From Zanthoxylum bungeanum (taxonomy: Eukaryota; Streptophyta; Magnoliopsida; Sapindales; Rutaceae): 64,000 nt of DNA. Positions within the stretch are counted from its first letter, which is position 1. The number at the start of each line of letters is the position of its first letter. The stretch is taken from contig SKCR01051206.1 of NCBI GenBank assembly GCA_019454045.1, forward strand, positions 62,001 through 126,000. Direction: 5' to 3'. The position numbers and the translations under genes were made by a program. The notes beneath the pieces were generated by a model, which was given only the letters and a program-made list of their open reading frames with translations, did no database searches and was not told the origin of the DNA. This document shows, one piece after another, positions 4,954-64,000 of this stretch.

Positions 4954-6999
4954 TGATGGTTTCTATTAAGGTCCCAAGATCAATAATAAGCATGAATCAA
5001 GTGCGAATACACATCGAAGAAGTTGCGGAATACTCACATCGATCGGTTGAGCGACGCGGAGGCAACAAAACTTCAAAAATTGCTCACTGGTTTCACGGCA
5101 ACTGCAGTTTTGTGCTCACTGGTTCGGCCTCGATTTTGGTCCTTCGTCAAGCTCCAAGCTTCATCGAATGGTTCCCGGCTCATGGGTGGACTTCCCTATC
5201 ACCTTCGCATGTCTCGTAAGTATGCTAGCATTTGAGATTTTGCCACAAAATCCCACTCTTGGCTTCCCTTCTTCTCAGCAGAACAGAAGAAAACAGCCCA
5301 CTGGTTTTGGCGTGAAGAGTAGAGAGAAAGAGAGAATGAGAGATGATGTGTTGTTGTGATTAATTGTTTAGTTTATGTATTTCCAAAAAACATATAACAA
5401 AAACCAAAGTCAAATTGGTAAAATTGTCATTCCAAATGACAAAAGTAAAATTGAGTGTTTAACACTCTTTGACCAACCAACCACTTCCATCACTTACAAT
5501 CAATCACATCAATCAATCAAGTGTCACATCACTCAAAGTGACATGTGATTTGACGCTTGATGTGACTAGCGATTTGACGCTTGATTTGACTTACGTGCCA
5601 CACTCAAATTCAAAATGCGAATGCGCTCGCAAACAATCCCGGGCTCGGGTTCGCTATTTCCAAATTAACGAATTTTCCGTTGCGTCGTAATTAAATGATT
5701 ACGCCTAGCGAAATCACTATTCACGTCGCTAACGAATTAATTCTAAATTAATTCGTTCGCCCGAATTAAAATCTAATTTTAATTCCGCGTCGAAATCCAA
5801 TTTCGTTTAATATATCAAATATATGAATTTATCAATTAATTCCAAATTAATCGTTATATCTCTTTAAATGATATTTTATCCCAGATAAAATATCTCCGCA
5901 ATTAATCCCAAATTAATTTTCTCTCTAATCTTATTAATCCCAGATTAATTTAGAGTGCGAGTCATACATCATCGGTGAATCTTTGGGAAGCTACCCATGA
6001 GATCCCCGGATATGTTGGCAGTAAATTCGGTCGTCGGACTATCCGAACACGTAAGTACCTCGTACTACGTTTATACTGATTTACAAGACAAGGTTGGCCT
6101 CTAGCAAAGCGCCATGCCTACCCAATTCTTCGAAAATATCCTTACAGGAATAAAGGATCTGTATCAGGCATACTATACGTAGTAATGCGTATTTCTGTCC
6201 AGTATCGAATGATCACGTGCTAGGCCTGGGGCTGGAATTGTGTCTGCCCCGTACGAAGCACATGTCAGATGTCCGGTGACTAGTCTCTATAATCGGATAT
6301 ACATGACCTAGTCATAATATCCCGATAGCTGCAGCATTTAAGAGAACCAGTCCCGTATCCTACGTGACCATCATCTCCATATGACTGGAGTGACACTTCC
6401 GTCTTGACATCACACCCAACACACTATGATTCTAAATATACTCAACATTGGCGTACACAGAACCTGTTAAAGCCCTGGACGACCTCAACCAAAGTACATT
6501 GATTGTCGCAAGTATTAGCGGTGCAAGTCTTAGGTTAAGACCAAATACACCTACCCTGATTTCGGACTTCCATAGACACATAGTCATACTACCAATGAAA
6601 TTCTGAGGGGGTCTATCCAGAGCGAAGCTGTTTCCCGTACCATCGGTAAAACACAACCTCCTATTACACTTGCATGAGTATCTTATACCCAAATATATGA
6701 GAACTATGCAGTTGTGCCCTCACAACGCGCACAAGTGTAATACTAGTCTTTTACGTATTTATCGATGTCCAATCTCGATAATACTCTGCTAGGGATATTT
6801 AATGATTTATCCTTCGTGGACTGATACTGTCTCATATCATTCTCCGTCCAAAAAAATCATAGGGACCTCTCATCATTTATATATCTAGGTGATCTAATCA
6901 TAAATGATAAGAGTGAAATCTCATTTGTCATATAGTTAATTTGTACAACAACACCATGATCTGTATAAATAGTGACGCTAGGGTCATAATTGTCCAACA
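4954..6999 (-). repeat. copia-1 5' LTR, 2046 bp
   Basis: The minus strand begins TGTTGGACAATTATGACCC at 6999. The same start is seen for copia-2, copia-3 and copia-4. It aligns over its whole length with the LTRs at 8736, 16120, 45573 and 53419. Confidence 0.85.
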
Positions 7000-8269
7000 G
7001 ATGGAAGTATCACTTCAGTCATATGGAGATGATGATCACACAGAGATACATAACTAGTACTCTCAAATACGCGCCAGCCATCGGGATAGTGTGACTAGGT
7101 CATGATTATCAGATTAATGAGACTAGTTGCTAGTGATCTGATATATGCTTCATAACAGACAGACAAAATTCCAGCCTCAGGCCTAACATCTGACATCTGA
7201 TACTGGATCGTAATACGCAATATATTATATATTATGTTTGATACAAATTATATATATTCCATGTTGAATATATTTCTGGAGAATTGGGTAGGCACGGTGC
7301 TTTGCTAGAAGCCAACCATGTCTTGTAAATCAGTAAGAATGTGGTACCGGGTACGCATGTGTTCAGATAGTCCGATGGCCGTATTTACTGCCAACATATC
7401 CATGGATCTCTTGGGTCACTTCCCAAAGATTCACCGATGACATTTGACTCAAACAGAATTAATCTGGGATTAATTATGAGAGAGAAAGAATTAATCTGGG
7501 ATTAATTACGATAAGAATTTATCTAGGATTAAATTCGTTTAGAAGAGATAACACGATTAATTTGGAATTAATCGGCAAAATAAATTTAATAGTTAAATTG
7601 GATTTTACTATTTAATTTATTTAATTGGGCTAAAATAATGTATCGGATATATTAATTGAAATTGGATTTCAATGCGGAATTGAAATTGGATTTTAATTCA
7701 AGCGAACGAATTAATTTGGAATTAATTCGCAAGCGACTTTCGTAATAATTTTGCTAGGCATCATTATTTAATTAAATTGGATTAAATTATGTCGCAACGG
7801 AAAATTCGTTTAATCGGATTAAACGAAACCGGGCATAAAGTCGTGTTGTGTGTGCCAACTAAATTTGGAATTTAAAAGTGGTGGGACCCACTTGACTTAC
7901 ATCAATTGTTTGACAAGTTTATGTGAGTAGTTGGCATCATTTAATGCCAAGCATTTAACAACACACTAACTAGTTTTTGAAAACCAACCAAGTCAATTTT
8001 AGAAGTTACTATTCACCATCTTCTCTCTTTCTCCCATTTTGGCCGTGAACTTCCTCTATTCCCTTTGAATTTGTGTAGCAAAAATTCAACATTGCTAGCA
8101 CATTAAGAGTCAAAGAAAGGTGATAGGGACACTGACCATTGAGTTTGGAATTCACTTTAAAGGCTTGGAGCTTCCATCTTCAAAGAAAAGTTTTGAACTT
8201 CACATCCAAATCAATGTAAGTCTTCCGCAAACTAGAATCATGTTTAGGATCCTTGGGCAAGTCTTATAG
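7000..8269 (+). repeat. Plus-strand copia LTR fragment (3' two thirds)
   Basis: It starts inside the LTR at a point equal to offset about 616 of the copia-4 LTR ('gatggaagtatcact') and follows it to within about 40 bp of the expected LTR end. Shared landmarks include 'gagaattgggtaggca' (7281) and 'actgccaacatatcc' (7389). It is in inverted orientation to the adjoining copia-1 LTR. The 5' part of this LTR should lie left of the window, beyond copia-1. Confidence 0.75.
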
Positions 8270-20492: not shown

Positions 20493-20902
20493 TTTATGAT
20501 AGTGGGAAGTTATTTTTTAGCTGTTGATTATCTTGTTTCTAGATGAATTATTTGTTAGCTGCTATTGTTTTGTATTGTTTTAATTTTTTTGTATTAATTT
20601 TTTTTACCCGGAATCAATTTCATTTTCAAGTACCATATCATCGACTGTTGTCTTTTTGTTATTTAAGCAAACCAAGTGGAAATAAATTCCTTCACACATA
20701 TATTTTGAAAGCAAGTGAATGAATCCTATTGATAAGATTGTGAGGTTGTCCTGTATGAAACAATCTATATTTATTATATTTCCAAGGAAAATAAAGCTCT
20801 TATAATCAGTTTTGGAGTCTTAGGGAGATCTCCTTAATCCTAGGAAAATCATTAATCACAATACTTTAAATAAATATAGCCATTCATTGTATTAAATTAA
20901 TG

Positions 20903-24124: not shown

Positions 24125-24772
24125 TGTTGGACAGTTATGACCCATAGCGTCACTATTTGTACAGATCATGGTGTTGTTGTACAAATTAACTATGTGACAA
24201 AGGAAATTGCTCTTTTATCATTTATGATTAGATCACCAAGATGTATAAATGATGAAAGGTCCATATGATTAGTTCTTGGATTGAGATGATATGAGACAGT
24301 ATCAATCCACGAAGGTTTAATCATTAAATATCCCTTGTTAGAGTATTATCGAGATTGGACATCGATAATGCGGAAAAGACTAGTATTACACTTGTGCGCG
24401 TTGTGAGGGCATAACGACATAGTTCTTATATATTTGGGTATAGGATACTCATGCAAATGTAGTAGGAGGTCGTGTTTTACCGATGGTATGGAAAACAGCT
24501 TCGCTCTGGATAGACCCCTCAGAATTCCATTTGTAGTATGACTATGTGTCTATGGAAGTCCGAATCAGGGTAGGTGTATTGGGTCTTAACCTGAGACTTG
24601 CACCGCTAATACTTGCGACAATCAATGTACTTTGGTTTTGGTCGTCCAGGGCTTTAACAATTTCTTTGTACGCTTAACAGTTTCTGTGTACGCCTCTTCT
24701 GGGTATATTGAGAATCGTAGTGTATTGGGAGTGATGTCGAGATGGAAGTATCACTCCAGTAATAGTGGAGAT
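24125..24772 (+). repeat. copia-4 5' LTR, first part
   Basis: Begins TGTTGGACAGTTATGACCC and runs to the GAGAT target site of the inserted element. It aligns with 40088-40664. Confidence 0.85.
24768..24772 (+). other. Target-site duplication GAGAT (left)
   Basis: GAGAT flanks the element on the left and is repeated at 32798-32802. Confidence 0.9.
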
Positions 24773-24968
24773 TGATGAGTGGTAAATCTATCACTATTTC
24801 CCACTCATTTAACCTAATATTTTGTATAGTTTATTGAGTTTTGTGAATATTTTGATGTGTTTAGTGTTATTTTGTAGATAAATAAAGTTTCAGGACATTC
24901 TGGAGGTGATTTGGGCCAAAATAGTGAAAATTGGACGAAAATGGCATTTTGGTAAATTCCTACGTCGT

Positions 24969-25570
24969 GACGCCAAGGCCTTCAGCGTCGCGACGCCTAA
25001 CGTGCACCGAACAGTGCTAACGTGCACCGGGTCCATGTGTCAGAATCTGAGAAAAGTTTTACTTTGCCAACGTGCGCCGTGCCACTTGTCACCATCACAG
25101 CCGATCTGCTAACATGCGCCGTGACATGTGTCAGCATCCTACGGTGCCGACAGTCATCATCGCCACGTGTGCCACGTGTCACTCCACGTCATTGCCACGT
25201 CATCAGCCACATCACCAGGTTGACCAAGTCAAGCTGCCACCTCACCGTCACGTCATCATCAGCCAATCAGGAAGTGCCACGTGTCGCAATCCTACGGTGC
25301 CGACAGTCTCTTTCCCACGTGTCGCCACGTCACCGCCACATCACCGCCACGTCAGCATCAATCATTGAGTATCTAATCCTTATCTGACACTTGGCGGATA
25401 AGAATCTCATCGACCAATCAGAAGCCGCCACGTGTCACAATAATTGAAGCCCAACCACCTCGCCACGTGTCACCTTATCAGCTTATCCAGAATCTGCAAA
25501 CCAACGAACCAGAGCGTGCCACATCGACAGAATCTGGCGTAGCGACGCCAAAGGCCTTGGCGTCTCGACG
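24969..25570 (+). promoter_or_regulatory. LTR U3 array of G-box/ABRE (CACGTG) and CCACGTCA motifs
   Basis: From about 25070 to 25470 the LTR contains at least six CACGTG cores (for example 25164, 25174, 25278, 25316, 25428 and 25457) and about as many CCACGTCA or ACGTCA cores, mostly spaced by 8-40 bp. In plants CACGTG is the target of bZIP (ABF, HY5, GBF) and bHLH (PIF, MYC) factors, and TGACG of TGA-type bZIPs. The array lies 120-530 bp upstream of the TATA box, where enhancer elements of an LTR promoter would be. A 26-27-bp GC-rich sequence (GACGCCAAGGCCTT...) brackets it at 24969-24994 and 25544-25570. Function is inferred from motif density only. Confidence 0.7.
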
Positions 25571-25589
25571 ATGGAAGCCTAGCAGGGCC

Positions 25590-25597
25590 TATAAATA
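25590..25597 (+). promoter_or_regulatory. LTR TATA box
   Basis: TATAAATA within GGGCCTATAAATAGAGC, a textbook plant TATA box. The 3' LTR has the same at 31535-31542. Transcription would start about 30 bp downstream and run through the interior, including the LOG gene. Confidence 0.8.
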
Positions 25598-26866
25598 GAG
25601 CTTCAAATTTCAGTTTTAGTGGTACCACTCTCTCTCATCTCTTTGATGTAAAGAGAGAGTTTCTCTCTCTAGTTTCTTTTAGTTTTTAAATTTTTTTTAG
25701 TTTTTAGTTTTGTAAATAATTTTAATTACGTTTTGTTAATATATAGTAATTTACTTTTTTACTTTTTACAGTTTTTACTATTCACTATGAGGAGGTAACT
25801 CCCCCAGCTAGGGTGAAAGGTAATTCTTTTACTATTACTATTTAGATTAATCTCCCTTAAAAATAATATATTCACTATTTAAAATATTGACTTAAAAAGG
25901 ATACTGCTAGATTGGTCGGTTGGTAATTCATTTTAATCTGGTTTAAACCTGACTAATAAAGGATACCGCCAGATTGGTCGGTTGGTAATATTATCACAAG
26001 TTTATATATTATTTTATGGGAGATATCTAAAATAGTAAATAGTAAAAGTAATTCCTTTTACCTTAGCATTTTATTTTATTTTATTTTACTTTTCAGTATT
26101 TTTACTTTATGTCATTTACTTTTAAGTTTTTACTAGCCCTAGTTATGTGTTAGTTATCTGGGGTTGTGATGAATTCTAATATCACCGGTTTATAAGGGGT
26201 TATTTTATAGTTTGGGTAATTTAAAGGTTTACTTATTAAGTTTTAAGCTTAATGCTTCTTGTTGTCTGATCACCAATAAGATTGATGTGGTAAATCTAAA
26301 ATGAACTATACATAGGGATTTTAGGTTTCAGCCTTAGACTTAATAGCCCACGATCTTCCTTGAGGATAGATAACCCTTTAATAGATTTCCTTACAGGATA
26401 GACATATACCTGTCGGGCGGGGGTAGCTATAATTGGAACTTAAACTTAATGAATCCAGATAATTTGGTTGACATAGATATATGGTTCAATTGGGTTAAAC
26501 TGGGTATTTGCGTCTGACCATCGACAGAGGCTTTTGCATAATTTAGTGTCCAAGTTAGTAAACTGATTTATTACACAAACATAAAATAATCACTTCATCT
26601 TTTAAAAGATATTAGAATGATTCACAACCCTAGATCTTTGTGTCTTTTGTTATTTTCTTTAGTATTTTCTTTTGTCTTTTTATTTATTTATTTATTTTCC
26701 AAATCTACAATCAACCAAATCAATCAAGCAATCATCTTCTCCCTCAATTAGATATTTGTAAATAAATAGATTCAACAATTAAGTCCTCGTGGGATCGATA
26801 TTTTGATACTACTTGAACGATACGTGCGCTTGCGTTATACGTGTGTGTTTACGCCGGTCAAGTTTT

Positions 26867-26884
26867 TGGCGCCGCTGCCGGGGA
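26867..26884 (+). other. Primer-binding site, tRNA-Asp type
   Basis: TGGCGCCGCTGCCGGGGA differs at one base from TGGCGCCGTTGCCGGGGA, the complement of the tRNA-Asp 3' end used by Athila-type elements. It lies 6 bp after the LTR. Confidence 0.85.
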
Positions 26885-27385
26885 CTTATTTTCTTGAGTT
26901 ATTAATTTGAAGCTATCCAAGTTACTTGTATCTAATTTTCTTTCTTTTTATCTGTAATTTTTATTTCTTTCTTCTATTTCAGGTGGTTGAAAAATGGAAC
27001 ACTACTGGGAAATTGAAAGATTACGAACCTTACAAGAAGATACACCCCACATCTGGGAGCAACAGTCTGTTTTCTGAGGCCTGTTGTGCAACCCAATGAC
27101 TGTCACTGGATGCCAAAACCAAGCACTATTACATTTGCTCATCAGAACGAAATGGGGAGATGTGTGATTTTGATGGTAACCACCTGAGCGATCAATGCCT
27201 ATACTTTTCAGAGTGGCAGAATTATCAGAATCATTCAAGGTACGAAGAACCATCACATTTTCCATCTTATCCACCATCCACCTATGATTCCCATCAACAA
27301 TCAGAACCATCAGATGAAGATCAGATGATTGACATGCTCAAATATTGGGTCAAGAACAGGACGAAAAGTTGGATACAATGCTTGA
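26885..27385 (+). other. Leader and broken start of the internal ORF
   Basis: The first ATG (26994) opens MEHYWEIERLRTLQED and stops after 27 codons. Another frame from 27160 (MCDFDGNHLSDQCLYFSEW, then SHFPSYPPSTYDSHQQ) runs 81 codons. The two frames and the one at 27386 look like one ancient reading frame broken by indels, but I recognise no family. Confidence 0.4.
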
Positions 27386-27787
27386 ACATGCCAGAATCAA
27401 TTTGAAAGTATTCAGAGACAATCAGAATTCATTCAGAGACTGACAGATCAAAGGAGACAGTTACCTCAAGAAGAATTATCAGATGAAACTGACAAAGCCT
27501 TCGAGTACCCAGAGATCCATAATGACACTTCAACAGAGGAGGAGGCTGAGCAGTATCAACAACCAGAGGTATCAGTTCAGGAGCCCGAACCGGCAAAGTC
27601 TCAATTTGATTTTTATTATTCAGATTCTGACGAGGATGAAGCTGATCTATTTGTACCAACTGCACCAACAACGGAGGATCAAACTTTCAATCCTCAAAAT
27701 GAAGATCTTGGAGCATGCTTTACCTTGATGTTTGAAGAAGATCTATCTGAACCATCCATTCCAGCCAGATCAGAGATGAAGACCTAA
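27386..27787 (+). pseudogene. Acidic Q/E-rich open region, unknown product
   Basis: 133 codons without a stop and without a leading ATG, ending at TAA 27785-27787. The composition is rich in Glu, Gln, Asp and Pro, for example TSTEEEAEQYQQPEVSV and YYSDSDEDEADLFVP. The upstream part (LEHARINLKVFRDNQN) is in another frame, so a frameshift separates it from any start. It may be a gag-like or accessory relic of the parent retroelement; I see no zinc knuckle or capsid motif. The bias toward short acidic repeats suggests a real former coding region, not chance. Confidence 0.45.
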
Positions 27788-27869
27788 AATCTGCCATTCC
27801 TTACATCCTCAGGTTGATAATTTTGCAGCATGCATTTCACAGATTACAAATGAAGAGCTGAATACAAAA

Positions 27870-28240
27870 ATTTTACAATACATCGTGAAGAAAAGGTGGA
27901 ACAAGAAGCAGAGCAAATGGAGGAGCAAATGTCTGACCTTAATAAAGATCCAGAGCATTCAAGAGAAATATCGCTGTTTTGGGGAGTAACAATCAAAGAT
28001 ATCGCCCAGAAGCTTGACAGAATGGAACTCCCATTCCAAGTCAAGCACCATATGAGACCTCCTGATTTTCTTTCTTTCTTTGCAGGAATCACTGGAACAA
28101 CAAGGATCAAAAAGGTGGCACAAGCACTAAATAGGACAAATTTTTTTATGCTACCTTACCGTTGGAAGAGACCCTTCAAAAGCAACGCTCACGGGATTGT
28201 CTTTAATCAGACATCCAAAACGAAATTGAAACCTCCTTGA
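27870..28240 (+). pseudogene. Open frame upstream of LOG, unknown product
   Basis: Same frame as 27386-27787 after a few stops. The region from the first ATG (27896) reads MEQEAEQMEEQMSDLNKD, then ISLFWGVTIKDIAQKLDRM, then a basic C terminus (YRWKRPFKSN...KTKLKPP), with 114 codons to TGA at 28240. It starts acidic and coiled-coil-like and ends basic. It lies where the end of gag-pol would be in an Athila-like element, just before the GGGAGGCAACCC landmark. I do not recognise a domain. Confidence 0.4.
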
Positions 28241-28291
28241 CATATGGATTTCAGTCACGTCTGGCTGAAGACGAAAAACTTAGCGCTAGCA

Positions 28292-28306
28292 GGGAGGCAA
28301 CCCATG
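28292..28306 (+). other. Conserved post-pol landmark GGGAGGCAACCC
   Basis: GGGAGGCAACCCATG. A sequence of this type follows the coding region in many Athila-like and LARD elements, as I recall. It marks the boundary between the former coding region and the slot that here holds LOG. Confidence 0.55.
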
Positions 28307-28769
28307 CAATTTGTTGTAATTTTTGTTTTCATATTTTGTGTATACATGTTGTAGAGTTTTTAATTTTGTGTGTTATTTTTTTAGGGAAAGGCACAAACAG
28401 AGCATTTTAAGACAGAAGGAATGATGTTTGGCAATCACAAAGAAGAGAGACAATTCATTAGTAATGGATGAGTAAAGAATTAATTCTTGAGACGCAGCCT
28501 AATAAATTTATACTAAGCGAGTGGCGTATTGCGTACACAATTTCGTTGCCTTAATTATTGCTTTGATTCACTTTTCTGTTGTAATTATCTTTATTTTCGT
28601 AGACAGGATCCAGACTTTTTGACCTTTCACATTCATTTTGTTGTTTAGCAAACAAACGTCCTCTGGAAGATACTATTGCTATTATTACTCACCCTTTTTC
28701 AGGTACCATAAATTCAGCCCGTCATTGCACTTTTGAAGGCATCCAGAGTTGAGAAAGAATACATAAAAA

Positions 28770-29420
28770 ATGGAAGCCACTTCAAGAAGACGAGTTGAAA
28801 ACATCTGTGTGTTTTGCGGTAGTAGTGTTGGAGTTAAGCCACAATACGTAGAAGCGCACATGAATTGGGTCGAGTCTTAGCTGCAAGGAATATGCACTTA
28901 ATATATGGCGGAGGCAATCTCGGACTTATGGGGATCGTTTCAAAGGCTGTACAGGATGAGGCAGTCATGTTTTGGGAATCATCCCAAAACCCTTGGCAGA
29001 GGCAAATCTTATTGATCATCAAACGGAGAGGAACTGATCGTGCCAGGTATGTCTGAACGACTGGTAGAAATGATTAACCGTGCTGATGCTTTTATCGCTT
29101 TGCCAGGTGGCTTGGGTACATTGGAGGAAATTTTTATAGTTCTATCTTGGGCGAACCTGAACATACACCAGAAACCGCTTGGACTATTCAACGTTGATGG
29201 ATTCTATGATTTTCTTTGTGTGTTTCTTGATGATGCTCAGAGAAATGGGTTCATGTCAAAACCTATGAAAGAACTCCTCTTTACTGCCAGAACTGCTCCG
29301 GATCTAATAGACCAACTCATAGCCTATGAACCACAAGTTGACCCTATCCTTTCAAAGATAAATTGGTCCGAGGACGATCGTGGTAAGAGGCGTAGGATTA
29401 ATCTGGATCTTAACCTTTAA
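28770..29420 (+). pseudogene. LOG-like: Intronless LOG-family cytokinin-activating gene captured by a retroelement
   Basis: LOG enzymes cleave cytokinin riboside 5'-monophosphate to active free-base cytokinin plus ribose 5-phosphate in the cytosol. The frame starts at ATG 28770 (MEATSRRRVENICVFCGSS), has the glycine-rich [11 protein letters not shown] near 28905, the signature PGGLGTLEE near 29103 and the family C-terminal part (KPLGLFNVDGFYDFL), and ends at TAA 29418-29420. Total length, about 217 codons, is normal for the family. Plant LOG genes have several introns; none is present, so this is an mRNA-derived copy. Three apparent 1-base deletions (near 28865, 28956 and 29027) break the N-terminal half; the net loss of 3 restores the original frame, so the C-terminal 126 codons from 29040 are open. 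Each deletion shortens a homopolymer, so assembly error is possible. The usual MHxRK motif reads MSERLVEM. The C terminus is basic and ends LDLNL. Confidence 0.93.
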
Positions 29421-29480
29421 TTTCCTGTAGATTTTCAGCTAACCAGGTACGACCTTCTTAACTCTCATTTTACTGTTTAA

Positions 29481-29520
29481 GACATTGGGGACAATGTCTC
29501 ATTTAGGTTTGGGGGAGGGA
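29481..29520 (+). other. Athila-like landmark hairpin and internal purine tract
   Basis: GACATTGGGGACAATGTCTC contains a perfect 7-bp stem (GACATTG/CAATGTC) with a GGGA loop. It is followed by TTTAGGTTTGGGGGAGGGA. This pair is a known hallmark of Athila-like elements downstream of pol. Together with 28292 it brackets the LOG insert. Confidence 0.55.
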
Positions 29521-30711
29521 ATTAGTTGATCAGTACCTTATTTTTAGTTTGTGTGTTATTTTTATTTTTAGTCCAAAATTTTTCGAAAAATACAAAAAAA
29601 TTGGAAAATTTTCAAAAATTACAAAAATATTTTGCATTTTTAATTTGACTAAAAAGGTGAAATTGGTAAGAGATAGTTGAGTAAGAATTTCCACTCCTAA
29701 GACGTATCTCAAACCTATTTCGAAACAAGTTAATTTTTGTTTATTTCATTTTGAATTATTTAATTTGTGAATTCTCCTTAAAACGGACTAAAATGGATCT
29801 TCATATGCTCAGTTGACAGATATTATAAACATATATAGTAACATACGGACATGAGCTAAAATTGAAAAGTTTGTAATATTAGTGCTATAGTTTAATTGGA
29901 GGAAACATCTCAAAAGCAATGGAGTAAAAAAAAAAAACGTCTAAGATCCGAGTTATTAAGTCTGTAAGGGTGTTTTAACACCTAGTGCCCTAAAGAAAAC
30001 TGGTTTGGGAGTCACTGGCCCAAAGCTCGTTACATGGATCGAAGATGCTACAAAAATATATATATCTGAAGTCTGAGTAATTAAGTCCGTAGGGGTGTCT
30101 TAACCCTGGTGCCCTAAAGCCAACTAGTTTGGGAGTCACCGACCCAACACTCGCTACATAGACGGAAGGTATTGTATATAAATAAAAAATAGAGAAAAAT
30201 CAAAGAAAAAATCAGAAAAATGAGAAAAATTATTCCATTGCTACAAAAAGTTGTGAAATCTGATAGAACTTTAGGACAAAAATATTACTCTCCTATCAAT
30301 TACACTTATGACTGTTGTGGGCAAAAATAAGTTGTTTAATATTTTGTTGGCTATGTATATGAAGAATGGTAAAAATAATCGGAGAATTTATTTATTCAGT
30401 AATTTAGAAAAAAACAAAACAACTAGTAACTTGGGGTAGAAGTTTCACCTGATCAGTCACTAACATCTTTATTCTTTTTTCGCTTGTCTTTTTGCTTTTG
30501 TGTGCATTAGTTTTACTACCTTTTTACTTTTGTAAAATGTTTGTGGGTATCATTGATGTAAACCCTCACAAGACTACAACTCGTCCACTAGGGACACCTA
30601 GGGGTTTAAAGGCTTGTTGCATACGTTAAATGCAACAGTGATCCCTACGAAAGTGGTTTAGTTAATTTATTTATGTTATTTTATGTTTTGCTCGAGGACT
30701 AGCAAAATGTT
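29521..30711 (+). other. 3' non-coding region of the LOG-carrying element
   Basis: AT-rich, no gene seen. It contains the 125-bp tandem duplication listed separately and, near 30690, 'gctcgaggactagcaaaatg', a sequence common just before the PPT of such elements. Confidence 0.6.
29940..30178 (+). repeat. 125-bp tandem duplication
   Basis: 'attaagtctgtaagggtg...gccctaaag...ggtttgggagtcac' at 29955 recurs at 30080 with a period of 125 bp and scattered changes. Confidence 0.7.
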
Positions 30712-30725
30712 AAGGTTTGGGGGTG
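30712..30725 (+). other. Polypurine tract of the LOG-carrying element
   Basis: AAGGTTTGGGGGTG directly precedes the 3' LTR (TGATGAGTGG at 30726). Confidence 0.6.
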
Positions 30726-32797
30726 TGATGAGTGGTAAATCTATCACTATTTCCCACTCATTTAACCTAATATTTTGTATAGTTTCTTGAGTTTTGTGAA
30801 TATTTTGATGTGTTTTTGTGTTATTTTGTAGATAAATAAAGTTTCAGGACATTCTGGAGGTGATTTGGGCCAAAACAGTGAAAATTGGACGAACATGGCA
30901 TTTTGGTAAATTTCGGCGACGCGACGCCAAGAACTTCAGCGTCGCGATGCCTAACGTGCGCGCCGAACAGTGCTAACATGCACCGGGTCCATGTGTCAGA
31001 ATCTGAGAAAAGTTTGACTTTTCTAACGTGTGCCGCGCCACGTGTCACCATCACAACCGATCTGCTAACATGCGCCGTGACACGTGTCAGCATCCTACGG
31101 TGCCGATAGTCATCATCGCCACGTGTGCCACGTGTCACTCCACGTCATTGCCACATCATCATCCACATCACCAGGTTGACGAAGTTAAGCTGCCACCTCA
31201 CCGCCACGTCATCATCAGCCAATTAGGAAGTGCCATGTGTCGCAATCCTACGGTCTCGACAATCTCTTTCCCATGTGCCGCCATGTCACTGCCACGTCAT
31301 CATCAATCATTAAGTGTCTAATCCTTATCTGACACGTGGCGGATAAGAATCTCATCAACCAATCAGAAGCCGCCACGTGTCATAATAATTGAAGCCCAAC
31401 CACCTCGCCACGTGTCACCTTATCAGCTTATCCAGAATATGCAAACCAACGAACCAGAGCGTGCCACGTCAACAGAAGCTGGCGTAGCGACGCCAAAGGC
31501 CTTGGCGTCGTGACGCTGGAAGCCTACCAGGGCCTATAAATAGAGCTTCAAATTTCAGTTTTAGTGGTACCACTCTCTCTCATCTCTTTGATGTAAAGAG
31601 AGAGTTTCTCTCTCTAGTTTCATTTAGTTTTTAGTTTTGTAAATAATTTTAATTACGTTTTTTTAATATAGTAATTTACTTTTTTACAGTTTTTACTATT
31701 CACCATGAGGAGGTAACTTCCCCAGCTAAGGTGAAAGGCAATTCTTTTACTATTACTATTTAGATTAATCTCCCTTAAAAATAATATATTCACTTTTTAA
31801 AATATTGACTTAAAAAGGATACCGTCAGATTGGTCGGTTGGTAATTCATTTTAATCTGGTTTAAACCTGACTAATAAAGGACACCGCCAGATTGGTCGGT
31901 TAGTAATATTATCACAAGTTTATATATTATTTTATGGGAGATATCTAAAATAGTAAATAGTAAAAGTAATTCCTTTTACCTTAGCATTTTATTTTTTTAT
32001 TTTACTTTTCAGTATTTTTACTTTATGTCCTTTACTTTTAAGTTTTTACTAGCCCTAGTTATGTGTTAGTTATCTGGGGTTGTGATGAATTCTAATATCA
32101 CTGGTTTATAAGGGGTTATTTTTAGTTTGGGTAATTTAAAGGTTTACTTATTAAGTCTTAAGCTTAATGCTTCTTTTGTCTGATCCAAATAAGATTGATG
32201 TGGTAAATCTAAAATGAACTAGACATAGGGATTTTAGGTTTCAGCCTTAGACTTAATAGCTCACGATCTTCCTTGAGGATAGATAACCCTTTAATAGATT
32301 TTCTTACAGGATAGACATATACCTGTCGGGCGGGGGTAGCTATAATTGGAACTTAAACTTAATGAATCCAGATAATTTGGTTGACATAGATCATATGTTT
32401 CAATTGGGTTAAACTGGGTATTTGCGTCTGACCATCGACAGAGGCTTTTGCATAATTTAGTGTTCCAGGTTAGTAAACTGATTTATTACACAAAAATAAA
32501 ATAATCACTTCATCTTTCAAAAGATATTAGAATGATTCACAACCCTAGATCTTTGTGTCTTTTGTTATTTTCTTTAGTATTTTCTTTTGTCTTTTTATTT
32601 ATTTATTTATTTTGCAAATCTACAATCAACCAAATCAATCAAGCAATCATTCTCTTCTCCCTCAATTAGATATTTTTAAATAAATAGATTCAACAATTAA
32701 TAACAACAGTAGGAATTAAGTCCTCGTGGGATCGATATTTTGATACTACTTGAACGATACGTGCGCTTGCGTTATAAGTGTGTGTTTACGCCGATCA
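30726..32797 (+). repeat. 3' LTR of LOG-carrying element, 2072 bp
   Basis: Same structure as the 5' LTR. The CACGTG/CCACGTCA array is at about 31030-31470 and the TATA box at 31535-31542. It has been altered by several CG to TG/CA changes. It ends ...GATCA, followed by the TSD GAGAT (32798-32802). Confidence 0.9.
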
Positions 32798-32802
32798 GAG
32801 AT

Positions 32803-38679: not shown

Positions 38680-39430
38680 CTCACCTGATAAAGATGTCAA
38701 TCTTATTGAGGAATACGAACTGACTACGTATGAGGAAGTGATACAAGGTATCGACTCCCTATTATGGCAAAATGTCATGATATCCGAAATGGATTCCATG
38801 TATACCAACTAAGTTTGGATACTAGTTGATGTACCACAAGGCATTGTGCCTATTGGTACTATATAAGTCTTCAAGGAAGACATGCATGGAAGGCAACATA
38901 CCGACGTACTAAGCTGGGCTTATAGCGAAAAGGTATTGTTATCAACATTGTGTCGATTATGACGAAACCTTTTACATATTGCCATTGTTAAATCCATTTG
39001 GACAATGCTTGCTAATGCTGCATGTTTCATTCATGAAATATGGCAGCTCGAATTCCAAAACCGCTTTCCTTAACGAAAACCTTTTGGAGGATGTTTACAA
39101 TATCCTGACGGTTTTGTCGTACCAAAACTAGCAAACAAGGTTTGCAAGTTATTCGATCCATGGATGGATTGAAGCAAGCATAGAGTTCTTGGAACTATCA
39201 TTTTGATGTAATCATAATGGTATATGATTTGAATCAAAACGGAAATGATTCTTGTGTATATAAGGAAGTTAGTGGGAGCGCACTAACAGTGAATGTACTG
39301 TATAATGACATATCATTTCTTGGAAATGATATTCCCATAAATACAATCGGTGAAAGCTTGGCTTTCATGAAAATTCTCCGTAGAATTATTGGGAGAAACA
39401 ACCTTTATTCTAGGAATAAAAATCTAATGG
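38680..39430 (+). pseudogene. copia-4 reverse transcriptase remnant
   Basis: Near 38710 it reads YELTTYEEVIQGIDSLLWQ, then MISEMDSMYTN, a stop, and VWILVDVPQGIVPIG, the N-terminal RT blocks. 39217-39435 encodes SCVYKEVSGSALTV, then DISFLGNDIPI. YVDD is lost (VLYNDISF). Multiple frameshifts. Confidence 0.75.
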
Positions 39431-41343: not shown

Positions 41344-41580
41344 GTGCGCGTTCGCGTAGAGTTCGAAAACGCGTTCGAATGGTAAACAGAAGGTTCGCGT
41401 TCGTGTAGCGTTCGAGAACGCGTTTGAACGGAACCAGACCTGATGTATGATGAGACTAAGAAAGTGTGTGTGCGTTCGCGTAGCGTTCGAGAACGCGTTC
41501 GAATGGTAAACAGAAGGTTCGCGTTCGTGTAGCGTTCGAGAACGCGTTCGAACGGAACCAGACTTGATGCATGCAACACA
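41344..41580 (-). repeat. 124-bp tandem duplication rich in CGTTCGA palindromes
   Basis: Two copies start at 41348 and 41472. Each contains GAACGCGTTC, a perfect 10-bp palindrome, and AGCGTTCGA. The right LTR has only one copy (62250-62340), so the duplication arose after, or was lost since, LTR replication. Confidence 0.75.
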
Positions 41581-41584
41581 AAGA

Positions 41585-42295
41585 ATAAAGACAATAATGT
41601 CAAGCTCAATATGTCCGATTAAACGTATCTTGCATTCAATCAAACACACATCAACCGGCGTGGCAAAGCATCGTGGTAAAGGGCTTTAACCCCTCCCCAT
41701 ATGGGATCTTTCATTGCACTTACTAAGCCCATGCACTCGATTGAATCACGCATACAAAGAATTAAAAAAAATAATGTCAGACTTAGTATGCCCGATTGAA
41801 CGTATCTTGCATTCAACCGAACACACATCAGCTGGCACGACAAAGCATCGTGGTAAGGGGCTTTAACCCCTCCCCATAGGGGATATTTCATTGCACTTAC
41901 TAAGCCCATACGCTCGATTGAATCATGCATACAAAAAATTAAAAGCAATAATATCAAACTTAGTATGCCCGATTGAACGTATCTTCCATTCAATCGAACA
42001 CACATCAACCGGCGCGGTAAAGCATCGTGGTAAAGGGCTTTAACCCCTCCCCATAGGGGATCTTTCATTCCACTTACTAAGCCCATGCGCTCGATTGAAT
42101 CATGCATAAAAAGAATTAAAAAAACAATAATATCAGACTTAGTATGCCCGATTGAACGTATCTTGCATTCAACCGAACACACATCAACCGGCGCGGCAAA
42201 GCATCGTGGTAAGGGGCTTTAACCCCACCCCATTGGGGATCTTTCATTCCACTTACTAAGCCCATGCGCTCGATTGAATCATGCATAAATAAGCA
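41585..42295 (-). repeat. Tandem array in LTR, four copies of ~177 bp
   Basis: 'aaagcatcgtggtaa' recurs at 41665, 41842, 42019 and 42198. The right LTR has three full copies (62447, 62624 and 62799) and a deleted fourth. Units include 'gcccgattgaacgtatctt' and 'ggggctttaacccctcccca'. The period of 177 is 59 codons, which explains long in-frame antisense reading frames that I do not accept as genes. Confidence 0.9.
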
Positions 42296-45567: not shown

Positions 45568-45572
45568 GTATT
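45568..45572 (+). other. Target-site duplication GTATT (left)
   Basis: GTATT at 45568-45572 and 55505-55509 flanks copia-3. Confidence 0.92.
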
Positions 45573-47664
45573 TGTTGAGTTCTAATATATGTCCCAAGAT
45601 CATGAAATCAAGCAAGAAATTCGTATGAACACATCAAAGGAGTAAGGAGGAAACATAACTCACATTGAACGGTTTTGGATGCGAAGAACAAGATGCATTT
45701 TTGCCTCCCTCAAAGTCACGGCAACAGCTCTCCAAGGCAGTGGGCTGCTCGGTTTTGATGGTGGTGGTCTCCTCCATGATCGGCCATTGATGACCTCCAT
45801 TGAAGCTCCAAGCTTCAAGCTCCAAAAATGATTCCAAGCTCATAAATTCGTTTCCCTATCACCATAGTATAACCCAAGGTGTGTGCTAGCACTCTTCATC
45901 TTCCTTTATTCTCGGTCAAACCAGAAATTTGAGGAAGAAATCGGCAGTGAGCCGTGAGAGGGAGAAGAGAAAATGGAGGGAAGAAAGGTTTCCTAGAAAC
46001 CGTGAAAGTGGAGAGAGAAGTAAGAAAAGAAAAATGTATTTTGGTTTATATATTTTTTCAAAAATAAAATAAACCATATACAACTTTTCAATTTTCAAAA
46101 ACCAAAAAGCTAAAACCAAAAAGCAAAAAGCATCTAAAGCTTTTCAACTACCACATCAATCACTCAAATCAAGTGACAACTTGTCACATCACTCAAAGTG
46201 ACATTTGATTTGACGCTTGATGTAACTTGCGATTTGACGCTCGATTTGACTTGCGTGCCGCACTCGAATTCGAAATGCGAATGCGCTCGCAAATAATCCC
46301 GGGCTCGGGTTCGCTAATTCCAAATTAACGAATTTTCCGTCGCGTCGTAATTAAATGATTACGCCTAGCGAAATCACTATTCACGTCGCTAACGAATTAA
46401 TTCTAAATTAATTCATTCGCCCGAATTAAAATCCAATTTTAATTCCGCGTCGAAATCCAATTTCTAATAATATATCAAATATATTATTTTATCGATTAAT
46501 TCCAAATTAATCGTTCTTTCTCTTTAGTTAATATTTTATCCCAGATAAAATATCTCCGTGATTAATCCCAGATTAATTTTCTCTCTCTTCTAATTAATCC
46601 CAGATTAATTAAGTGCGAGTTATACGTCATCGGTGAATCTTCGGGAAGCGACCCATGAGATCTCCGGATATGTTGGCAGAAAATACGGTCGTCGGACTAT
46701 CCGAACACGTAAGTACCTCGTACTACGTTTATACCGATTTACAAGACAAGGTTGGCTTCTAGCAAAGCGCCATGCCTACCCAATTCTCCAGAAATATTCT
46801 TACAGGAATATATAGATCTGTATCAAGCGTAGTATACCGTAGTATTGTGTATATCAGCCCAGTATCGGATAGTCACGTGCTAGGGCTGGGGCTGGATAAG
46901 TGTCTGCCCCGTCCGAAGCACATATCGGATGTCTGGTAACTAGTCTCTATAATCGGATATACATGACCTTGTCATAATATCCCGATGGCCGGCCAGCATT
47001 TAAGAGCACTAATACCATATCCTGCGTGACATCATCTCCACTATGACTGGAGTGATACTTCCGTCTTGACATCACACCCAATACACTACGACTCTCTGAT
47101 AAACCCAGAAGTGGTGTACGCAGAATCGGTTAAAGCCCTGTACCACCAAGACCAAAGTCTATCGATTATCGTAAGTATTAGCGATGCAAGTCTCAGGTTA
47201 AGACTATACACACCTACCTTGATTTCGGCCTCCCATAGACACATAGTCATAATACCAATGAGATTCCGAGGGGTCTATCCAGAGCGAAGCTGTTTCCCGT
47301 ACCATCGGTGAAACACGACCTCCTATCACACTTGCATAAGTATCCAATACTTATCTATATGAGAACTATGCCGTTGTGCCCTCACAATGCGCACAAGTGC
47401 AATACTAGCCTATTCCGCATTATCGATGTCTAGTCTCGACAATACTCCGGCTAGGGATATTTAATGATTAAACCTTTGGGACTGATACTGTCTCATATCA
47501 TTCTCAGTCCAGGAACTAATCATAGGGACCTCTCTTCATTTATATATCTAAGGTGATCTAATCACAAATGATGAGAGTAGAATCTCCTTTGTCACATAGT
47601 TAATTTGTACAACAACACCGTGACCTGTACAAATAGTGACGCTATGGGTCATAATTGTCCAACA
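45573..47664 (-). repeat. copia-3 3' LTR, 2092 bp
   Basis: On the plus strand it starts TGTTGAGTTCTAATAT and ends TGTCCAACA, followed by the PPT. Confidence 0.9.
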
Positions 47665-53417: not shown

Positions 53418-53418
53418 T

Positions 53419-55504
53419 TGCTGAGTTCTAATATAGGTCCCAAGATCATGAAATCAAGCAAGAAATTCGTATGAACACATCAAAGGAGTAAGGCGGAAAC
53501 ATAACTCACATTGAACGGTTTTGGATGCGAAGAACAAGATGCGTTTTTGCCTCCCTCAAAGTCACGGCAGCAGCTCTCCAAGGCAGTGGGCTGCTCGGTT
53601 TTGATGGTGGTGGTCTCCTCCATGATCGGCCATTGATGACCTCATTGAAGCTCAAGCTCCAAGCTCCAAAAATGATTCCAAGCTCATAAATTCGTTTCCC
53701 TATCACCATAGTATAACCCAGGTGTGTGCTAGCACTCTTCATCTTCCTTTATTTCTCGGTCAAAAACCAGAAATTGAGAGGAAGAAATCGGTAGTGAGCC
53801 GCGAGAGGGAGAAGAGAAAAATGGAGGGAGAGGAAGAAGGTTTCCTAGAACCCGTGAATGTGAAAGGGAGAGAGAAGTAGAAAAAGAAAAATGTATTTTG
53901 GTTAATATTTTTTAAAACAAAAATAAACCATATACAACTTTTCAATTTTCAAAAACCAAAAGCAAAAACCAAAAGCAAAAAGCATTTAAAGCTTTTCAAC
54001 TACCACATCAATCACTCAAATCAAGTGACAACTTGTCACATCACTCAAAGTGACATTTGATTTGACGCTGGATGTGATCGCACTCGATTTGACTTGCGTG
54101 CCGCACTCGAATTCGAAATGCGAATGCGCTCGCAAATAATCCCGGGCTCGGGTTCGCTAATTCCAATTAATGAATTTTCCGTCGCGTCGTAATTAAATGA
54201 TTACGCCTAGCGAAATCACTATTCACGTCGCTAACGAATTAATTCTAAATTAATTCATTCGCCCGAATTAAAATCCAATTTTAATTCCGCGTCGAAATCC
54301 AATTTCTAATAAATATTAAATATATTATTTTATCGATTAATTCCAAATTAATCGTTCTCTCTCTTTAATTAATATTTTATCCAGATAAAATATCTCCGTG
54401 ATTAATCCCAGATTAATTTTCTCTCTCTTCTAATTAATCCCAGATTAATTAAGTGCGAGTTATACGTCATCGGTGAATCTTCGGGAAGCGACCCATGAGA
54501 TCTCTGGATATGTTGGCAGTAAATGCGGTCGTCGGACTATCCGAACACGTAAGTACCTCGTACTACGTTTATACCGATTTACAAGACAAGGTTGGCTTCT
54601 AGCAAAGCGCCATGCCTACCCAATTCTCCAGAAATATTCTTACAGGAATATATAGATCTGTATCAAGCGTAGTATACCGTAGTATTGTGTATATCAGCCC
54701 AGTATCGGATAGTAACGTGCTAGGGCTGGGGCTGGATAAGTGTCTGCCCCGTCCGAAGCACATGTCGGATGTCTGGTAACTAGTCTCTATAATCGGATAT
54801 ACATGACCTTGTCATAATATCCCGATGGCCGGCCAGCACTTAAGAGCACTAATACCGTATCCTGCGTGACATCATCTCCTCTATGACTGGAGTGATACTT
54901 CCGTCTTGACATCACACCCAATACACTACGACTCTCTGATAAACCCAGAAGTGGTGTATGCAGAACCGGTTAAAGCCCTGTACCACCAAGACCAAAGTAT
55001 ACGATTATCGTAAGTATTAGCGATGCAAGTCTCAGGTTAAGACTATACACACCTACCTTGATTTCGGCCTCCCATAGACACATAGTCATAATACCAATGG
55101 GATTCCGAGGGGTCTATCCAGAGCGAAGCTGTTTCCCGTACCATCGGTGAAACACGACCTCCTATCGCACTTGAATAAGTATCCAATACTTATATATATG
55201 AGAACTATGTCGTTGTGCCCTCACAATGCGCACAAGTGCAATACTAGCCTATTCCGCGTTATCGATGTCCAGTCTCGATAATACTCCGGCTAGGGATATT
55301 TAATGATTAAACCTTTGGGGACTGATACTGTCTCATATCATTCTCAGTCCAGAAACTAATCATAGGGACCTCTCTTCATTTATATATCTAAGGTGATATA
55401 ATCACAAATGATGAGAGTACAATCTCCTTTGTCACATAGTTAATTTGTACAACAACACCGTGATCTGTACAAATAGTGACGCTATGGGTCATAATTGTCC
55501 AACA
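53419..55504 (-). repeat. copia-3 5' LTR, 2086 bp
   Basis: Paired with 45573-47664. It ends CCAACA and is followed by GTATT. Confidence 0.9.
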
Positions 55505-61570: not shown

Positions 61571-64000
61571 TGTGGGACACATGAACTGGACGACGCATGC
61601 TGTCCCGGGCTCGCGGCCCGGTCGGGAGTACGGAGTAGCCACGGGGGACTAAACCGGAGAATAATGGAGTCGCCACCCGGTGTGAACCGGGAAAATGAGA
61701 TTTAAGGCCGCACTCACCCCTCGCATGGGAAGACCTCAAACCGTTGGGTTCGGAATGGTCCCTTACTAATGCCACTTGTAATGAAAGGATTTATGTAATA
61801 ATTTAATCAGGCTTAAGTAGCACTTATTTCCAAGAGTATCATGCTTCTAAATTCACATGTACAAAATAAAACTTACAAATATATTTCACATCTAAGATTG
61901 CATGCTTGGAAGTACATCAAAGGAGCGACAAACATACAACTTCATTGGCATATTATATTCAAGAAAACACAAGCACACATACTAACCACACAAGCATATA
62001 TGTGAGCACCTCCTCAAGTGGTACGTGGAATTATATCCCAAGTACAGACCGTACTACCGTCCATTCAGAATCGGCTACGGAATTTATATCTGGGTTTCCA
62101 TCCGATATACCACAAGAAATAATACTCAAATGTTATCATGACATAGGTATATGAATTGTAATACATTAAAAACATTGTATTCATACATGTGGGGATAGCT
62201 ACTAGGAAAACTATGTATGAAATCTGATGAAAAGGACTCAGTTCAGTGGGTGCGCATTCGCGTAGCGTTTGAAAACGCGTTCGAATGGTAAACAGAAGGT
62301 TCGTATTCGTGTAGCGTTCGAGAACGCGTTCGAACAGAACCAGACTTGATGCATGCAACACAAAGAATAAAGACAACAATGTCAAGCTCAGTATGTCCGA
62401 TTAAACGTATCTTGCATTCAATCGAACACACATCAACCGGCGCGGCAAAGCATCGTGGTAAAGGGCTTTAACCCCTCCCCATAGGGGATCTTTCATTGCA
62501 CTACTAAGCCCATACGCTCGATTGAATCACGCATACAAAGAATTAAAAAACAATAATGTCAGACTTAGTATGCCCGATTGAACGTATCTTGCATTCAACC
62601 GAACACACATCAACCGGCGCGACAAAGCATCATGGTAAGGGCTTTAACCCCTCCCCATAGGGGATCTTTCATTGCACTTACTAAGCCCATGCGCTCGATT
62701 GAATCATGCATACAAAGAATTAAAAGCAATAATATCAAACTTAGTATGCCCGATTGAACATATCTTGCACTCAACCGAACACACATCAACCGGCGCAGAA
62801 AAGCATCGTGGTAAAGGGCTTTAACCCCTCCCCATAGGGGATCTTTCATTCCACTTACTAAGCCCATACGCTCGATTAAATCATGCATAAAAAGAATTAA
62901 AAAAATAATAATATCAGACTTAGTATGTCCGATTGAACGTAATTTGCATTCAACCGAACACACATCAACCGAACACACTCGATTGAATCATTCATAAATA
63001 AGCAACATGCAGAATTCAAGTGACGAAAAAAATAAATAAACCAAAGCAACACAAAACAAAAGAGGGTGCCGTTTACTCAAGCGGTACGTGGAGTTGTATC
63101 CCGAGTATAGATCATACTACCGTCCATTCGGAATCGGCTATGAAATTTATGTCCGGGTTTCCATCCGATATACCGCGAGAGTTGACACATCTCTCATTTT
63201 ATTCCAAAGCCACAACATACAACATCTCATAATTCATGCATATTTATCTACTCAAGGGCCACAACATGCACTTCAACATGACAACCATGCAAGCAATACT
63301 CAATAGATAATACAAATAAAAAAACGAGTGTGAAAAATACCCTTAAGTCTAACCTTTTTTCCAACTTTTGGGCTTGCGTTTCACGGACGTCGGAAAGGGT
63401 ACAGCTCCTCAACTTCTCCGGTTCACTGGTTTAGCATCCTAGCTCACTGTTTTGCTATTTTTCTTACCGTTCGGCCTCCGTTCTGCTGCTTTTCGGTCTC
63501 CGTTCTGCTGCTGTTCGGTCTCTGCTTTGCTACTCACTGCTCAGGTCATCTGTTTTGACGTTTCAATGAACTGTTTCGAGTGTTTTTTGTGGTTTTTTTA
63601 GTGTAGTTTTGTGTGGTTATTTAAAGGATTATAACTGCAGTTTATGTTACTGTTTTAAGGGATTTTAGAGACTGTTTTGGGAGTGGTTTGGGCTGTTGTC
63701 CAGGCGTTTTTCAAATGGTGTTTGGGGTGTGTTTGGGCTGCTGTTTGGAGGTATATTTTCGGTGATGGAGGGCTGCTGTATGGGGAAGATTTTCGGTGAT
63801 GGGTAGAGGTTTAAGGGGGTGCTGTTTTCGGTTATGGAGTGGAGGAGATTAATGGAATTGTTTGTGTTCTTCTTGTTGCTATTGCCGTGAGTGGCTAAGG
63901 CTATTTGTGTTGTGATTTTTGTGTGAGTTATCTATATGAGCTAGATGATGCATGTCTTGGTTAGGGGTTGTTTATATAGAGAATGGCTAGGGCTCTACCT
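61571..64000 (-). repeat. 5' LTR of Tat/Ogre-like element, first 2430 bp
   Basis: Aligned with 40665-43302. It carries the same 2.64-kb segment (from 61808) with fewer tandem copies (three 177-bp units plus a deleted one, one 124-bp unit). By comparison with the left LTR about 600 bp more would lie beyond the window edge. Confidence 0.85.

Follow-up and report, generated by a model that had tools for sequence, protein, structure and literature searches.

The 64,000-nt stretch of the Zanthoxylum bungeanum genome analysed here (the window; contig SKCR01051206.1, positions 62,001 to 126,000) was found to carry an LTR retrotransposon at 24773-32797, with an LTR pair, a target-site duplication (TSD), a primer-binding site and a polypurine tract (Table 1). 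The preliminary description of this DNA as containing a complete element with a GAGAT TSD is thus borne out. The two LTRs share 96.1% identity over 2,045 ungapped sites (K2P 0.040), and the primer-binding site is presumably of the tRNA-Asp type.

Table 1 Features of the LTR retrotransposon in the window. Positions are those of the window; a dot denotes no strand.
Feature	Position	Strand	Remark
5' copy of target-site duplication GAGAT	24768..24772	.	from sequence
5' LTR, 2,088 bp, TG...CA ends	24773..26860	+	
Putative promoter-like (TATA) box TATAAATA inside 5' LTR	25590..25597	+	
Primer-binding site TGGCGCCGCTGCCGGGGA, just inside 5' LTR	26867..26884	+	
ORF1, degenerate, gag-like	26994..28240	+	start judged by eye
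Candidate splice acceptor (pyrimidine tract + CAG) ahead of LOG	28688..28702	+	splicing presumed
LOG-family copy, full-length, intronless, frame-broken	28770..29420	+	pseudogene in window copy
Post-LOG motif GGACAATGTC...GGGGGAGGG, just 3' of LOG	29489..29519	+	
Polypurine-tract-like AAGGTTTGGGGGTG, G-rich, just ahead of 3' LTR	30712..30725	+	
3' LTR, 2,072 bp	30726..32797	+	
3' copy of target-site duplication GAGAT	32798..32802	.	

When the gag, RT, RNase H and integrase sequences of a relative were compared with the element by blastn, none gave a match, in agreement with the earlier statement that RT and integrase are lacking; two scanned ORFs other than LOG had no Pfam match. The counterpart of ORF1 in the relative L030 is a 419-aa frame (L030:993-2249, minus strand), which in a single comparison was 25% identical to the gag of L037 over 126 aa (E = 9e-8). 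A gag-like ORF together with no match to RT, RNase H or integrase corresponds to the LARD/TR-GAG type, and the window element is a non-autonomous, pol-less type, because relatives without RT still keep LOG and one relative has gag-pol together with LOG. TR-GAG and LARD elements are non-autonomous LTR elements that lack pol or have a gag-like ORF, and they are moved in trans; the window element resembles them in its LTRs and lack of pol, but a captured enzyme ORF is not known to be part of their definition.

The homology to LOG in the window spans the entire coding length on the sense strand and is free of introns. Identity to an intact copy from elsewhere in the genome (L059) is 94.0% at the DNA level (651 sites, 3 gap positions). 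Chance is ruled out by the E value of 3e-99 against an intact copy and by the number of LOG places in the genome given below. In extent, orientation and lack of introns the copy is as previously described, but an intact LOG frame in the window is ruled out, as the frame is lost near 28857, is followed by stops and is regained only near 29016. The longest open stretch consists of the C-terminal 134 codons. LOG does lie downstream of the LTR TATA box, as had been reported, but about 3.2 kb away, after the degenerate gag-like ORF, and is not LTR-proximal. An acceptor-like site ahead of LOG recurs in 18 of 20 relatives.

The host assembly (3.956 Gb, 51,709 contigs) contains a 29-mer of LOG at 20,574 places, the post-LOG motif, with up to 2 mismatches, at 28,538 places and the LTR start at 39,113 places; the reversed control gave 0 in each case. 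Among 20 places picked by exact match to the DNA beside LOG, LOG itself was found in 19 and an intact 217-aa frame in 4. The gene is broken or truncated in 15 of the 19 copies, likewise in the window.

Ten 20-kb regions selected for the presence of LOG were surveyed for modules. One of them, the only one with RT, has the arrangement gag-RT-RH-IN-aORF-LOG, with LOG as the last ORF; five have gag, the end of IN, aORF and LOG but no RT; two have a window-type ORF1 and LOG, and two have LOG without any of these modules. Perfect 5-bp TSDs were found for 7 of 9 elements checked, the window element among them. In L025, PF00078, PF17919/PF17917, PF17921 and PF00665 occur in this order, which is the RT-RNase H-integrase order of Ty3/gypsy, and one RNase H was seen in the pieces scanned (Pfam), a second one being typical of Tat. 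The family probably belongs to the Athila lineage of Ty3/gypsy. The reading frames of the gag-pol relative C21229 are interrupted, and no relatives were confirmed in viral contigs.

Statistically, purifying selection acted on the LOG frame during the spread of the family. In the 19 copies chosen by exact flanking match, omega was 0.37 for variants common to several copies versus 0.69 for private variants (Fisher p = 3.8e-4). In an enlarged set of 43 copies, for which the window copy and 23 intact copies ranked by HMM were added to these 19, the values were 0.40 and 0.79, respectively (p = 2.2e-5). A first dN/dS of 0.23 was obtained from 20 non-redundant copies (40 HMM-ranked, 23 of them intact, 3 near-identical ones dropped) and is biased towards well-conserved copies; because of this bias of the HMM-ranked set, the main weight is placed on the flank-chosen sample. 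Copies with an intact LOG frame, for which the preliminary description had suggested a search of the host genome, do occur (4 in 20 places), and the frame was under selection. The omega of private variants (0.69) is itself below 1, pointing to constraint or bias in the private class too.

The protein encoded by the intact copies belongs to the LOG/TIGR00730 family, with scores above both curated cut-offs: L014 reached 127.1 bits with PF03641 (cut-off 27) and 170.9 bits with TIGR00730 (cut-off 96.35), L059 169.8 bits with the latter. The PGGxGTxxE loop is retained, bar a few private changes. With residues numbered as in CgLOG and site roles taken from PMC4979012, the equivalents of the catalytic Arg99 and Glu122 are each present in 20 of 20 copies, and in 43 of 43 in the enlarged set, and that of Thr119 in 18 of 20. 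His97, Lys100 and Glu125 line the adenine/prenyl pocket in CgLOG, AtLOG3 and CpLOG (PMC4979012), but none of the 20 element copies has this pocket: the His97 equivalent is Ser or Phe, that of the adenine-site Lys100 is Leu, and that of Glu125 is Ile or Thr, in all 20. Of 25 places with host LOG exons, three were read, and these have splice-like borders where the element LOG runs continuous; the places were found with a pattern requiring the Lys, which means that canonical LOGs exist in the host, while other host LOGs may differ. With the bacterial cytokinin equivalog NF058542 (cut-off 300) element copies scored 117.1 and 120.1 bits; this argument against cytokinin activity was dropped, since the Arabidopsis LOG3 control, at only 133.4 bits, is also below the cut-off. 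A structure of the element LOG predicted from a six-row alignment had a pLDDT of 32.5 and was unusable.

It appears unlikely that the element LOG is still cytokinin-activating and that local cytokinin aids the element, for instance by favouring dividing or meristematic cells in which insertions are inherited. The existence of full-length intact frames, the purifying selection on them, the TIGR00730 score and the retained Arg/Glu pair and loop would all suit such a role, and the M. marinum protein, which PMC4979012 treats as a LOG, also deviates at the His, Glu and Trp prenyl positions. Therefore, among the replacements in the pocket, the change of Lys100 alone is strong evidence; in the same source, alanine at the AMP-binding and catalytic residues, Lys100 being listed and Ser19 excepted, led to almost complete loss of activity. 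On residue comparison, an element-selected protein with changed or lost cytokinin activity seems likelier than hormone dosing by a mobile LOG; the latter, raised in the preliminary description, is unsupported, with a broken LOG in the window and the Lys, His and Glu of the pocket replaced in all 20 sampled copies.

Somewhat less probable still is that LOG is a functionless passenger, which the source elements happened to carry, its low omega arising from few sources and from sampling. The prevalence of broken or truncated copies fits this explanation, as does the private omega, which shows some bias in the method or the sample; it accords poorly with the smaller share of amino-acid changes among shared than among private variants, with the catalytic Arg and Glu invariant in 43 copies, and with the retention of LOG in RT-less derivatives, albeit in regions chosen for LOG. 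That LOG exists as a single copy, or entered one already integrated element and never replicated with it, as the preliminary description had set against a mobile LOG, can be dismissed: no evidence in favour of a later insertion was found, and LOG occupies the same position between LTRs of the window element's family in 8 of 10 regions, occurs at 20,574 places and in a gag-pol relative, and its elements are flanked by 5-bp TSDs. Because of the LTR-flanked copies, their number, the gag-pol relative and the purifying selection, the proposed capture of a host LOG and the mobility of the family are supported.

The reading that we favour, with a probability of roughly 65%, is that a gypsy family captured a spliced host LOG and amplified it, and that the selected protein, with its altered pocket, is not a standard cytokinin enzyme, because the adenine/prenyl pocket has changed while the Arg/Glu pair was kept. 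In the simplest case, a Ty3/gypsy family would have captured the spliced mRNA of a host LOG a single time, with LOG becoming the last ORF, after pol and before the 3' LTR; amplification would then have raised its copy number to tens of thousands. On this view, the window element would be a decayed, pol-less derivative with the gag-like ORF1 and LOG, presumably mobilised in trans by gag-pol-LOG relatives, whose LTR ends, primer-binding site and polypurine tract seem to resemble its own. LOG would probably be expressed from a spliced subgenomic RNA via the acceptor-like site before the ATG. On the statistics, purifying selection maintained the protein during the spread. This protein would most likely have another nucleotide monophosphate as its substrate, or serve the element as a nucleotide-binding accessory.

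Bs1 of maize is a pol-less element. It is, like the element described here, an LTR element with transduced host gene sequence, but the sequence comes from different host genes (PMC7264820), whereas here one full-length gene occurs at thousands of places and with an RT-bearing relative. It is regarded as a rare event for additional protein domains to become fixed in LTR elements of plants (PMC9289625, abstract). LOG-family (YgdH) domains are on record in Ty3/gypsy elements of two Citrus species, C. sinensis and C. clementina, and of Populus trichocarpa (PMC9289625, citing Steinbauerova 2011), those of Citrus passing a filter of at least 5 consensus sequences and those of Populus only unfiltered; the case that had been called notable is hence not the first in print. 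The available part of that account gives a domain match only, whereas copy number, selection, active site and pol-less forms come from the element described here; no published account of the scale, selection, pol-less forms or altered pocket of LOG elements was found. Ty3/gypsy elements of orchids that carry an ORF for an AlkB-type m6A demethylase are similar in that a host-type enzyme ORF is fixed in a large gypsy element, but the enzyme is another one, its activity was demonstrated in vitro and its cofactor-binding residues are all kept (PMC9289625), whereas the element LOG is known from sequence alone and has its pocket residues replaced.

A single genome thus carries a hormone-pathway enzyme at no fewer than 20,574 places, with 4 of 20 flank-sampled copies intact and the frame selected. 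As a tentative proposal, held with less confidence than the capture scenario itself, a captured cytokinin enzyme may have become the retrotransposon's own selected accessory, with the catalytic pair kept, the base/prenyl pocket changed and thousands of intact copies, possibly acting on another nucleotide monophosphate or a modified nucleotide in reverse transcription or silencing. The number of places, the intact frames and the selection raise the testable question of what a retrotransposon gains from a LOG-fold nucleotide hydrolase. For annotation, thousands of intronless LOG-like ORFs would inflate counts of the LOG gene family.

The element in the window is complete as an LTR retrotransposon, as the preliminary description had it: GAGAT flanks both ends, a PBS-like TGGCGCCGCTGCCGGGGA adjoins the 5' LTR on its inner side, and a G-rich tract precedes the 3' LTR. 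The LTR pair has 96.1% identity and a K2P distance of 0.040 (2,045 ungapped sites), corresponding to 1.5 My at an LTR clock rate of 1.3e-8 per site per year. At 3.92e-9, the rate applied to Zanthoxylum in the portion of PMC8417289 consulted, the age becomes 5.1 My. The claimed absence of RT, integrase and protease stands for RT and integrase, since a blastn search of the element with a relative's gag, RT, RNase H and integrase gave no match. The LOG homology is full-length and intronless as described, but the copy leaves the frame near 28857 and re-enters near 29016 with stops in between, and so cannot encode a whole LOG. The LOG-bearing retrotransposon family is real and very abundant, and the window copy is one of its decayed, non-autonomous members.

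Table Coordinates of features in the window and in one relative
Feature	Position	Strand	Remarks
5' LTR	24773-26860		TG...CA ends
LOG homology	28770-29420		no introns
Post-LOG motif	29489-29519		just 3' of LOG
3' LTR	30726-32797		TG...CA ends
Second element	within 40665-64000	minus	about 20.7 kb
177-bp tandem arrays	41570-42287, 62352-62971		in long direct repeats of second element
Inner direct repeats	45572-47664, 53418-55504		about 7.84 kb apart, 96-99% identity
aORF (C21229)	L025:8620-8943		between integrase and LOG

The second element has long direct repeats 20.7-20.9 kb apart with, by eye, gag/pol-like ORFs between them; the inner repeats are perhaps LTRs of another element nested in the about 20-kb one.

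Patterns were counted in the host assembly (3,956,113,105 bases), where every reversed-pattern control gave 0. The LOG 29-mer was found at 20,574 places and the post-LOG motif at 28,538 (up to 2 mismatches); with up to 3 mismatches, the LTR start was found at 39,113, the window-type ORF1 (a gag-like ORF ahead of LOG, degenerate in the window) at 7,487, and the RT pattern of the gag-pol relative at 6,560, which may include LOG-less relatives. A PF03641 search gave at least 150 matches, all over the cut-off (150 of 47,331 first-look candidates scored). Among the matches listed (the first 100 places per pattern and the PF03641 match table), inspection by hand showed that RT shares a strand with LOG or the post-LOG motif, at a distance of 3.2-3.8 kb, in C55, C89, C160, C659 and C9149, an arrangement like that of C21229; those in C157 comprise LTR starts at 276271, 282220 and 288181 and LOG at 280615 and 286571.

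Ten regions of 20 kb, each surrounding a high-scoring LOG copy, were annotated; because all were chosen for LOG, its presence in 10/10 is no evidence. An LTR pair encloses LOG in eight, the exceptions being C45283, with tandem pieces, and C20105, with no clear 5' LTR; together with the 29-mer count, this bears out the proposed mobile LOG family. C21229 has the order LTR, gag, RT, RNase H, integrase, aORF, LOG, LTR and the TSD GATAT, with gag and pol frames interrupted in that copy. C29888, C18558, C21286, C27586 and C32781 retain gag, the integrase end, aORF and LOG, with no RT seen in these regions, C24657 and C22822 carry window-type ORF1 and LOG, and C45283 and C20105 have LOG with none of these other modules. 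A perfect 5-bp TSD was present in seven of the nine elements with ends checked (window, C21286, C21229, C24657, C18558, C27586, C22822) and absent at C29888 and C32781; that of C21286 encloses additional nested LTR pieces. ORF1 of C24657 had no Pfam match and shows 25% identity over 126 residues with a gag segment of C27586 (E=9e-8, single comparison). The aORF, conserved in 6/10 regions, had no Pfam match either. In C45283 (L039/L040), an LTR piece and LOG form tandem units with a period of about 3.5 kb and a 5.9-kb self-match at 98.5%.

In the part of PMC9289625 available, the YgdH domain, known from LONELY GUY proteins, is reported from two Citrus species in consensus sequences of gypsy elements, and from Populus only without that study's filter, in agreement with Steinbauerova 2011 as cited there. 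Neither 'YgdH' nor 'lysine decarboxylase' occurs in the main text of PMC7264820, PMC6317226 or PMC11963269, and titles and abstract openings, covering few subscription papers, disclosed no report on copy number, selection or active-site changes of LOG-bearing elements.

As for the origin of the gene, canonical MH(E/Q/D/H)(R/S)KAEMA occurs as DNA at 25 places in the genome, a pattern that demands Lys and would miss host LOGs lacking it. In the three places read (host exons L081-L083), the LOG frame stops at GT right after the ALPG codons, and in L083 it begins after a pyrimidine tract and CAG. As element LOG runs through both host exon borders, it probably derives from a spliced mRNA. By hand count, L081 shares 21/32 residues with the intact element copy L059, L083 15 and L082 14. 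A pyrimidine tract and CAG also lie 54-81 nt upstream of the LOG ATG in 18/20 copies examined (absent in L015 and L020) and in the window; by eye, ORF1 of the window, C24657 and C22822 has a similar candidate site ahead of it, as does gag of C21229. A spliced LOG mRNA is probably produced with the candidate acceptor ahead of LOG.

To avoid the bias of HMM-ranked copies, a sample was taken from the first 20 usable exact post-LOG motif places, skipping one near a contig start; LOG was present at 19. The exception, L069, has the motif but no LOG ahead of it, and thus points to a related element that lacks LOG or carries a different insert. In these 19 copies plus the window (CgLOG numbering), Arg99, Glu122 and Met96 are kept in 20/20, Glu121 in 19/20, Thr119 in 18/20 and Trp129 in 17/20. 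Lys100 is Leu in all 20, His97 is Ser in 17 and Phe in three, and Glu125 is Ile in 14 and Thr in six. According to the portion of PMC4979012 consulted, alanine at AMP-binding and catalytic residues, except Ser19, nearly abolishes activity, and at three prenyl positions, those of His, Glu and Trp, M. marinum LOG differs too, so Lys100 carries most weight for an altered pocket. That element LOG is still a cytokinin-activating enzyme is accordingly doubtful, even though it passes TIGR00730 (170.9, cut-off 96.35); its score under the cytokinin equivalog NF058542 cut-off (117 vs 300) says nothing on activity, because Arabidopsis LOG3 is also under it (133). The suggested hormone dosing by a mobile LOG is not supported, given these replacements and the broken window frame. 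A changed reaction within the LOG family would have precedent, since plant LOGs are reported to fall into two groups according to whether they yield iP or iPR (PMC11593424). At the C-terminus (window about 29388-29417), most of the HMM-ranked copies listed have a basic stretch followed by NLDLNL. The two resemble a nuclear signal and an EAR-type LxLxL motif.

LOG is intact in 23 of 40 HMM-ranked copies, and 20 non-redundant intact ones give mean dN 0.045 and dS 0.193, in a biased sample. At the flank-chosen places, where exact motif matching favours younger copies, it is intact at 4/20 (L062, L071, L074, L080); if this holds, the genome would contain thousands of intact LOG frames. Variants shared by at least two of the 19 copies comprise 76 synonymous, 70 nonsynonymous and 4 stop changes, where neutrality predicts 41.0, 101.6 and 7.4 (omega 0.37); private variants number 62, 127 and 8, where it predicts 47.6, 139.2 and 10.1 (omega 0.69, itself below 1). 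The classes differ (Fisher p=3.8e-4), a test in which recurrent mutation could mimic sharing. Adding the window LOG gave 0.37 and 0.69 (p=6.1e-4), and adding the 23 intact copies and the window (n=43) gave 0.40 and 0.79 (p=2.2e-5). Since private changes are mostly post-insertion and shared ones come from replicating lineages, these values support selection on the LOG frame while the family spread, and the intact copies sought as its sign were found. That LOG is a functionless passenger, broken in most flank-chosen copies, is quite unlikely given the shared-variant omega.

Capture, spread and selection of LOG are supported by these comparisons. It is possible, and put forward tentatively, that the captured enzyme was turned into the element's own selected accessory protein, with the catalytic pair kept and the base/prenyl pocket changed. 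The broader reading, to which we give a probability of about 0.65, is that a captured LOG was amplified and selected with its adenine/prenyl pocket altered, and likely serves a role other than cytokinin activation.
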